Source: Flavobacteriaceae bacterium
GTDB taxonomy: Bacteria; Bacteroidota; Bacteroidia; Flavobacteriales; Flavobacteriaceae
Length of the DNA: 64,000 nt
NCBI GenBank assembly: GCA_017852075.1
Contig: JAFMLQ010000002.1
Coordinates: 1-64,000, forward strand
Reading direction: 5' to 3'
Below the pieces are notes generated by a model, which had not been told where the DNA came from, ran no database searches, and worked only from the letters and a program-made list of their open reading frames with translations. Position numbers and translations under genes: made by a program. Of the stretch, positions 5,521 through 7,253 are shown piece by piece. Within the stretch, counting starts at the first letter, position 1; each line of letters opens with the position of its first letter.

Positions 5521-6714
5521 ATGAATTTACACGAATATCAAGGAAAAGAACTGTTAGCACGTTTCGGAGTTACTGTGCAACGTGGAATTGTAGCCAAAAC
5601 TGCTGAAGAAGCGGTTGCCGCAGGAAAAGAACTGACTGAAACCACAGGAACTTCTTGGCATGTGATTAAAGCCCAAATTCACGCCGGTGGGCGTGGAAAA
5701 GGTGGTGGGGTAAAATTAGCAAAAAGCTTAGAAGAGCTCAAAACCATCGCAGGAGAAATTATTGGTATGCAACTCATCACCCCACAGACTCCACCCGAGG
5801 GGAAGAAGGTTAGCCAAGTCTTGGTAGCAGAGGATGTGTATTATCCTGGAGCATCAGAGCCAAGTGAGTTTTATATTTCTGTTCTTTTGAATCGTGCAAA
5901 CGGCAAGAATATGATCATGTATTCTACAGAAGGAGGAATGGACATAGAAGCGGTTGCAGAAGCCACTCCACATTTGATTTTTACCGAAGATGTGGATCCT
6001 GCTTTAGGCTTACAGCCTTTTCAGGCTCGAAAAGTTGCCTTTAATTTAGGTCTTTCCGGAGCAGCCTTTAAATCCATGACCCAGTTTGTAAGTGCATTGT
6101 ACAAAGCTTATGTGGGTTCGGACGCTTCGTTGTTTGAAATCAATCCCGTATTGAAAACTTCTGACGATCGCATCATTGCGGTAGATGCCAAAGTGACCTT
6201 GGATGACAATAGCCTCTTCCGTCATAAAGATTTTGAAGCAATGCGAGATCTTAGTGAAGAAAATCCAGTTGAGGTTGAAGCCCGTGAAGTAGGTTTAAAT
6301 TATGTTGATCTCGACGGTAATGTAGGATGTATGGTTAATGGTGCAGGTTTAGCCATGGCAACCATGGATTTGATCAAACAAGCTGGAGGAGATCCCGCCA
6401 ACTTCCTTGATGTAGGAGGTACTGCAGATGCCGCTCGTGTGGAAACAGCATTCCGTTTAATTTTAAAAGATCCTAACGTCAAAGCTATTTTGGTAAATAT
6501 TTTTGGAGGAATAGTGCGTTGTGATCGTGTGGCTCAAGGAATTGTTGATGCTTATAAAAACATGGGAGATGCCATTAAAGTGCCTATAATCGTCCGATTG
6601 CAAGGCACCAATGCCGATATAGCAAAAGATTTGATCGATTCCTCTGGATTGAACGTCCTCTCTGCTACTGCGTTTCAAGAAGCAGCCGATAAAGTACAAG
6701 AAGCAATAGCTTAG
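5521..6714 (+). CDS. sucC: succinyl-CoA ligase (ADP-forming) subunit beta
   Basis: TCA-cycle enzyme subunit that carries the ATP-grasp nucleotide domain and, with SucD, interconverts succinyl-CoA and succinate with ATP formation. 397 residues, the usual size. Seen: MNLHEYQGKELL start, KAQIHAGGRGKGGGVKLA in the ATP-grasp domain, FEINPV, VNGAGLAMATMDLI, NFLDVGG and VNIFGGIVRCD in the C-terminal CoA-ligase domain. No sucD is adjacent; separate sucC and sucD are common in flavobacteria. It is transcribed alone, and hsp20 follows after 110 bp with its own control region. Confidence 0.97.
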   Translation: MNLHEYQGKELLARFGVTVQRGIVAKTAEEAVAAGKELTETTGTSWHVIKAQIHAGGRGKGGGVKLAKSLEELKTIAGEIIGMQLITPQTPPEGKKVSQVLVAEDVYYPGASEPSEFYISVLLNRANGKNMIMYSTEGGMDIEAVAEATPHLIFTEDVDPALGLQPFQARKVAFNLGLSGAAFKSMTQFVSALYKAYVGSDASLFEINPVLKTSDDRIIAVDAKVTLDDNSLFRHKDFEAMRDLSEENPVEVEAREVGLNYVDLDGNVGCMVNGAGLAMATMDLIKQAGGDPANFLDVGGTADAARVETAFRLILKDPNVKAILVNIFGGIVRCDRVAQGIVDAYKNMGDAIKVPIIVRLQGTNADIAKDLIDSSGLNVLSATAFQEAADKVQEAIA

Positions 6715-6727
6715 CGACATTATGTCA
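6715..6727 (+). promoter_or_regulatory. palindromic site 1 upstream of hsp20
   Basis: CGACA-TTA-TGTCA is a near-perfect copy of an inverted repeat TGACA-N3-TGTCA. A second copy follows 32 bp downstream (centre to centre), about three helical turns. Spacing and position upstream of a sigma-54-like promoter suggest an activator-binding site; this is inference. Confidence 0.5.
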
Positions 6728-6746
6728 GCTTTTTTATCAAAATAAC

Positions 6747-6759
6747 TGACATAGTGACA
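6747..6759 (+). promoter_or_regulatory. palindromic site 2 upstream of hsp20
   Basis: TGACA-TAG-TGACA matches the inverted repeat TGACA-N3-TGTCA at 9 of 10 positions. It lies between site 1 and the GG-N10-GC promoter-like element. Confidence 0.5.
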
Positions 6760-6770
6760 AAAAAATTATA

Positions 6771-6785
6771 TGGTCTTGATTTTGC
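6771..6785 (+). promoter_or_regulatory. candidate sigma-54 (-24/-12) promoter of hsp20
   Basis: TGG at 6771-6773 and TTGC at 6782-6785 give the GG-N10-GC spacing that RpoN holoenzyme requires; the -12 part (TTGCT) matches well and the -24 part (TGGTCT versus TGGCAC) only partly. It lies 39 bp before the hsp20 ATG, and no TAnnTTTG box is seen in this gap. Confidence 0.45.
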
Positions 6786-6824
6786 TTTAAGGAAGACAAT
6801 AAAAATTGTTAACCTTAATACATT

Positions 6825-7253
6825 ATGATTATGAATTTAATACGCAAACAAACTCCTTTTTTCCCTTCTTTAATTGATGATTTTATCAATCACGATTGGA
6901 ATCTTAAAGCCCCAAGTTCTTCTACCTTACCCGCAGTAAATATCAAAGATTTGGAAACCCAATTTGAAATTTCACTCGCGGCACCAGGGATGAATAAAAG
7001 CGATTTTGAAATTGAAATAGAAGACGGACTATTGTCCATCTCCTCATCATCAGAAGAAGAGCAGCTGTCAGAAAATGGTAAATTCACAAGACGTGAGTTC
7101 AGTTACCAAAGTTTCAAAAGAACCTTCACTATCCCAGATAGTGTGGAACCTACAAATATTGAGGCACAGTATTCGGATGGAGTGTTACAGCTTCATTTGC
7201 CAAAGCGCAAAGAAGCCTTACCACAGCCTAAAAAGCGAATTAAAATCCGATAA
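6825..7253 (+). CDS. small heat-shock protein, Hsp20/alpha-crystallin family
   Basis: ATP-independent chaperone that holds unfolding proteins, 142 residues. The alpha-crystallin domain spans about residues 38-130: PAVNIKDLETQFEISLAAPG at its start and the family signature GVLQLHLPK near its end. It ends in a basic tail with an IKIR sequence, like the I-x-I tail that small Hsps use for oligomer contacts. ATG codons occur at 6825 and 6831; either could start translation. The gene stands alone between a sigma-54-like control region and an intrinsic terminator, so it is probably a stress-induced monocistron. Confidence 0.93.
   Translation: MIMNLIRKQTPFFPSLIDDFINHDWNLKAPSSSTLPAVNIKDLETQFEISLAAPGMNKSDFEIEIEDGLLSISSSSEEEQLSENGKFTRREFSYQSFKRTFTIPDSVEPTNIEAQYSDGVLQLHLPKRKEALPQPKKRIKIR

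Follow-up and report, generated by a model that had tools for sequence, protein, structure and literature searches.

A candidate sigma-54 operator-promoter unit upstream of hsp20 and other chaperone genes of Bacteroidia, and its probable activator

What controls the small heat-shock gene that follows sucC in this flavobacterium? The window, that is the whole stretch of 64,000 nucleotides analysed here, comes from a genome of 1.91 Mb that is 89% complete and distributed over 79 contigs. The gene of the succinyl-CoA ligase beta subunit, sucC (5521-6714, + strand, stop codon at 6712-6714), lies directly upstream of the presumed switch and is followed by hsp20, which encodes a small heat-shock protein of 142 aa (6825-7253, + strand; PF00011, E 4.9e-23); for this gene, the ATG at 6831 is the probable conserved start. 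Between the two genes, a first-pass annotation had described two near-copies of TGACA-N3-TGTCA followed by GG-N10-GC. The positions of both sites and their spacing of 32 bp, from centre 6721 to centre 6753, stand, but each copy deviates from that palindrome by one mismatch and the second is better seen as a TGACA direct repeat. Since the middle base of the half-site is free across relatives, the proper motif is TGNCA-N3-TGNCA. On direct reading, the distal site 1, CGACA-TTA-TGTCA (6715-6727, + strand), starts at the base right after the sucC stop codon and is one mismatch away from this motif; the proximal site 2, TGACA-TAG-TGACA (6747-6759, + strand), matches it exactly. Direct reading also confirms the GG (6772-6773) and the GC (6784-6785) of the annotated GG-N10-GC, in TGG and TTGC context, and together with the alignment it delimits a sigma-54 -24/-12 promoter of the form TGG-N8-TTGC, TGGTCTTGATTTTGC (6771-6785, + strand). 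When GC is taken as -13/-12, following the numbering of sigma-54 promoters, the predicted transcription start falls at 6797 (+ strand) and the sites are centred at about -76 (distal) and -44 (proximal). CIRCE, the inverted repeat of HrcA control, has the form TTAGCACTC-N9-GAGTGCTAA; by reading, it is absent from 6715-6824, which leaves this region outside the HrcA/CIRCE type.

Taken singly, these elements are within chance for the window: the palindrome with at most one mismatch is observed twice for 1.86 expected, and the looser TGG-N9-TTGC pattern 9 times for 8.9 expected. Their combination is not. When the 160-bp upstream region was shuffled 20000 times, no shuffle reached the full architecture, with two sites, fixed spacings and promoter. 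The first-pass annotation had made its reading depend on conservation across relatives, and the architecture is indeed kept in all 21 genomes in which hsp20 was found, out of a genus sample of 25 with the present genome included. The promoter is present upstream of hsp20 in 21/21; site 2 is exact, its gap to TGG is 11 bp and the distance between the site centres is 32 bp in 20/21 each. Site 1 shows at most one mismatch in 16 of these genomes and two in the other five (at most two in 21/21). Reversed half-sites, used as controls in the same search, gave 4-8 mismatches against the 0-2 observed. In the 21 upstream regions, the invariant columns are those of the half-sites and of TGG and TTTTG, joined by those of a leader element and of the first codons. 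An arrangement assembled by chance, or arising as a by-product of a constraint on the end of sucC, would agree with the frequency of each single element in the window, but it is contradicted by the shuffles and the 21 relatives, and the same operator-promoter unit is found at dnaK, grpE and htpG, far from sucC. Such an origin has a negligible probability; chance assembly was rejected on the shuffles, the controls and the conservation at unlinked genes.

The leader element, ATTGTTAACCTTAA (6805-6818, + strand), is situated in the predicted 5' leader and was delimited by the alignment of 21 sequences. Its consensus, TTGTTWAnCTTAAAA, is nearly invariant in the 21 genus genomes, about 20 bases before the hsp20 ATG, and nearly all of its TTGTT-A columns are invariant. 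A leader hairpin or RNA thermometer was considered and rejected, no consistent hairpin being found over the 21 leaders. The element resembles a leader in one other family (L030). In other families, five hsp20 matches (L029-L033) keep the layout only in part, as judged by eye, and may not be orthologues.

Alternatively, hsp20 could be transcribed from an unrecognised primary-sigma promoter, the -24/-12 look being accidental. The hsp20 start of this organism is predicted rather than mapped, which is compatible with such a promoter. On the other side, the TGG and TTTTG columns are invariant in 21 sequences, and the stretch 6715-6785 contains, by eye, no TAnnTTTG box, the -7 element of the primary sigma factor according to PMC9723704; the first-pass annotation was right on this absence. 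A primary-sigma promoter is thus very improbable at this place.

The sigma-54 unit is not confined to hsp20. A strict pattern, defined as the operator, 10-13 bp and TGG-N7-TTTG, was found in 31/31 genus genomes with 0 control matches. Of its 73 matches in all, 30 were examined (one locus per genome), and they lie before grpE (12), htpG (9), hsp20 (8) and clpB (1). In the present genome, units or near-units stand upstream of hsp20, htpG, grpE-dnaJ, dnaK and clpB. A scan of this genome with a gap of 12 and up to two mismatches gave 11 matches against 3 for the control; four are intergenic (htpG, dnaK, clpB and the operon of EBP2, a protein described below) and seven fall inside ORFs. Searching from the gene instead, the paired unit was found at dnaK in 28/28 genus genomes, against 0/28 for the control. 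The earlier claim that hsp20 is under alternative-sigma control gains support from conservation, but the unit turns out to be common to dnaK, grpE-dnaJ, htpG and others rather than special to hsp20.

Before clpB and groES the unit is weaker than before dnaK, grpE-dnaJ and htpG. Across the class, clpB is preceded by the strict operator in 2/24 cases, by the operator with at most one mismatch in 8/24 and by TGG-N8-TTG in 19/24. At groES the operator was counted in 50/78 loci, and TGG-N8-TTG in only 4/78. Those exact groES matches that were inspected fall within a hairpin where secG ends, so that a half-site is left near the promoter; because this hairpin confounds them, the groES operator counts are not given full weight. 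At several loci (L213 at 6406, L214 at 6836, and the named loci L245, L266 and L268) the distal groES operator is within this hairpin, which is followed by T's, and the -12 element reads CTGA instead of TTGC. The secG-end hairpin with its T's may act as terminator and operator at once.

The breadth of the unit was assessed in a phylum sample of 247 genomes of at least 90% completeness, except the present one at 89%. The strict pattern occurs in 27/27 genomes of the family (the present one included), 1/3 of the other families of the order and 17/31 of the rest of the class, being missing in the other 14. This amounts to 45/61 class genomes against 0/61 for the controls; outside the class, 9/186 genomes contain it, against 4 for the control. 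The 72 class matches outside the present genome precede grpE (23), htpG (20), dnaK (4) and hsp20 (1), 48 together, as well as the genes of a zinc peptidase (PF04298; 12), YidC (5), thioredoxin (2) and LemA (1), 20 together; four are without assignment. For zinc peptidase, YidC, LemA, thioredoxin, Lon and SecA, a single representative was scanned with Pfam in each case, and the remainder were assigned by like sequence. A looser scan, allowing one mismatch, gave matches in 11 of 14 chosen class genomes. The 30 loci examined from it added SecA as a new target and further cases of Lon, thioredoxin, GrpE, HtpG, DnaK and Hsp20, along with a few matches before unrelated genes. On the basis of these target genes, the regulon consists of protein quality control together with some membrane-protein biogenesis.

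Other genera of the family have the unit before the membrane zinc peptidase (PF04298) or YidC (L119-L121, L126, L131, L140-L142, L144-L146, L148; L133, L135, L152, L159, L168), which suggests a membrane-protein branch of the regulon. In one other family (L375-L378) it is found directly after rpoN and before secA. Outside the class, five of the nine strict matches lie before lon (3) or clpB (2) (L178-L182) and four are without assignment, at a match rate near that of the control; the circuit may predate the class and reach beyond it.

Which proteins could read these elements? RpoN is encoded in the present genome (PF04552 at G000:C52:46734-47210, E 1.1e-51) and was found in 116/119 class genomes. 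A search of the present genome with PF00158 (Sigma54_activat) returned two strong matches, that is two clear enhancer-binding proteins (EBPs). The first, a REC-AAA+ protein of 387 aa (L001, G000:C63, 1258-2421, - strand) beside what we take to be an MscS-like channel gene, ends without an HTH or any DNA-binding domain. The second, EBP2, is a protein of 421 aa with its AAA+ domain at the N-terminus, a C-terminal HTH_8 and no sensory domain (no receiver, PAS or GAF). Its domains (PF00158, E 4.4e-66; PF02954, E 1.2e-11) and the GAFTGA/GSFTGA loop seen in the alignment identify it as a bacterial EBP, and of the two it is the only clear one with a DNA-binding domain, with the reservation that, at 89% completeness, a third EBP may be missing from the assembly. 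The HTH core GISERTLYRKI is nearly invariant in the alignment, and an extra stretch of about 100 residues between lid and HTH is partly conserved. The AlphaFold model of EBP2 is poor (mean pLDDT 50) and no conclusions were drawn from it; the solved chains closest in sequence, the AAA+ domains of NtrC1, FleQ and NtrC, add only the family. With RpoN encoded, the operator and -24/-12 columns invariant in 21 sequences and an EBP with a DNA-binding domain at hand, the suggestion of an enhancer-binding protein acting on RpoN is supported.

EBP2 is nearly universal in the class. Best matches of orthologue grade (E at most 2e-95, some partial) were obtained in 116/119 class genomes, and the three misses are assembly gaps, so that no true loss was found among the 119. 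Indeed, two of the three genomes without EBP2 also lack miaB, its neighbour, which points to a region missing from the assembly, and in the third the gene is broken by a run of N. Two genomes (G332 and G371) have operator sites in common with their sister genomes, and a further one (G339) has only two one-mismatch matches, neither before a recognised target. Three genomes (G311, G383 and G356) gave no match at up to one mismatch although EBP2 is present. The first of them (G311, L230), of 0.49 Mb, keeps RpoN and EBP2, its only EBP match, and has no strict operator match.

The EBP2 locus, ordered miaB-EBP2-lptE-TPR-secG-groES, carries the operator itself. Eighty named EBP2 loci were collected, the best 80 of 592 candidates and consequently close relatives, the nearest being Flavobacteriaceae bacterium UBA980 with 97% identity; 79 were scored for an operator near miaB. 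Among these best 80 of 592, 75/79 loci have the exact operator no more than 200 bp from miaB, against 0/79 for the reversed control, and the whole 804 kb of the named loci contain 132 operator matches against 7 control matches. In a wider sample, it was found in 12/18 regions with miaB. Still among the best 80 of 592, a TAnnTTTG box follows the operator by 16-20 bp in 64 of the 75 named miaB-EBP2 loci, and the second half of the operator carries TTTG (29/75) or CTTG (25/75) at the place expected for the -33 box, an element of the primary-sigma promoter. The operator would thus overlie the presumed sigma-A promoter of the miaB-EBP2 operon, which is the position of a repressor and suggests autorepression. 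It is this operator at EBP2's own promoter that is regarded as decisive for assigning EBP2 as its reader.

The same observations bear on a different assignment, in which the promoter is a sigma-54 promoter but TGNCA-N3-TGNCA is bound by another regulator, a repressor or helper, and a different EBP activates, for instance the HTH-less REC-AAA+ protein, from solution. A second EBP does exist in this genome, and the operator overlies a sigma-A-type promoter as a repressor site would. The operator is also closer to the promoter than usual enhancers: EBP sites commonly stand at least some 80-150 bp ahead of the start, and here the centres are at about -44 and -76 from the predicted start, short of that distance. 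Opposed to this are the operator before EBP2's own operon in 75/79 loci (among the best 80 of 592) and the fact that, of the clear EBPs of this genome, only EBP2, near-universal in the class, has a DNA-binding domain; a division of labor between two regulators is accordingly unlikely. Moreover, the dyad half-sites are conserved upstream of the sigma-54 promoters of several genes, as expected of EBP sites. As a putative EBP2 site, the operator would function like an enhancer site, yet it is promoter-proximal. If true, this position would make EBP2 act in a way uncommon among sigma-54 activators.

A known precedent is PspF, the phage-shock activator of E. coli, which acts on an operator at its own promoter to repress its operon. 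EBP2 resembles it in having AAA+ from the N-terminus, a Fis-type HTH and no sensory domain. It scores 272.4 bits against the NCBIfam PspF equivalog, below the cut-off of 443.55 bits, and is therefore not classed as PspF; unlike PspF, it contains the extra stretch of about 100 residues between lid and HTH and would serve cytosolic chaperones. Small heat-shock genes with a sigma-54 promoter are known in E. coli ibpB and myxobacterial hspA. These are single genes of other phyla, whereas here a chaperone operator is common to many genes.

Closer to the present organism, sigma-54 (SM4) starts were mapped in F. psychrophilum before groESL, lon, dnaK, grpE-dnaJ, htpG, skp and clpB (Guerin et al. 2021, PMC9723704). 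In the sections of this account considered here, the species is reported with one sigma-54, three EBPs and, besides sigma-54, seven ECF factors only, and the activators are left open. As here, -24/-12 promoters stand at chaperone genes, and an EBP lies beside lptE, close to groESL by locus tag. The same sections give no operator and no assigned activator, and hsp20 is outside their printed selection; the operator with its geometry and a candidate activator are provided here. At the scale of Bacteroidota, sigma-54 promoters are enriched for GroEL, IbpA-type Hsp20, GroES, GrpE, DnaJ and DnaK, most highly in Flavobacteriia (PLoS One 2025, PMC12316311). As far as the consulted portion of that study goes, its regulons rest on promoter matrices, without a named operator, and EBP specificity is stated to be unavailable for some of the organisms. 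Sigma-54 control of flavobacterial chaperones, being already published, is not new. The present analysis adds an operator of defined geometry, the case of hsp20, a candidate for the activator and its feedback site; in the open-access literature searched, no account of the operator or the activator was found.

What is observed here is the set of elements, their fixed geometry and conservation, the target genes that they have in common, an encoded RpoN and EBP2, and an operator at the promoter of EBP2; from this we infer binding, activation and autorepression by EBP2. On these sequence grounds, the stretch is quite probably a sigma-54 promoter accompanied by two TGNCA-N3-TGNCA operators, with hsp20 belonging to a protein-quality-control regulon and EBP2 as the most likely activator. 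This protein would occupy the proximal site, around -44 of sigma-54 promoters, and, at hsp20, also the second site three helical turns upstream. There it would contact the sigma-54 RNA polymerase held at -24/-12, remodel the closed complex and open the promoter by ATP hydrolysis, leading to more chaperones. At its own operon, where the operator overlies the presumed sigma-A promoter, EBP2 would act as a repressor and limit its own synthesis. As it lacks an input domain, EBP2 probably has its activity set by a partner. In the most speculative part of this scheme, a guess, the partner is perhaps free chaperone, which unfolded protein would titrate away.

The same mechanism could respond to envelope, osmotic or surface-growth stress rather than to heat or unfolded protein. 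YidC, SecA and the membrane zinc peptidase are among the targets, and EBP2 is clustered with lptE and secG, both of which agree with an envelope signal; most targets are cytoplasmic chaperones and proteases, which agrees less well with it. In the part of the published F. psychrophilum account covered, heat is not mentioned as a signal. Such a stress is a serious possibility, if the less favored one.

The scheme can be carried to the level of the class. The chances are about even that in Bacteroidia EBP2 takes the place of sigma-32 as master activator of the chaperone (heat-shock) genes: an activator devoid of sensor, autorepressing and restrained by chaperones, which would work from a promoter-proximal site fixed at -44 and not by long looping. 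Bacteroidia are abundant in gut and ocean, and in the literature covered no regulator is named for the switching of their chaperones without sigma-32. Together, the specific operator, a candidate activator present almost throughout the class and the predicted site of feedback would offer a testable answer to how chaperones are controlled in this large class.
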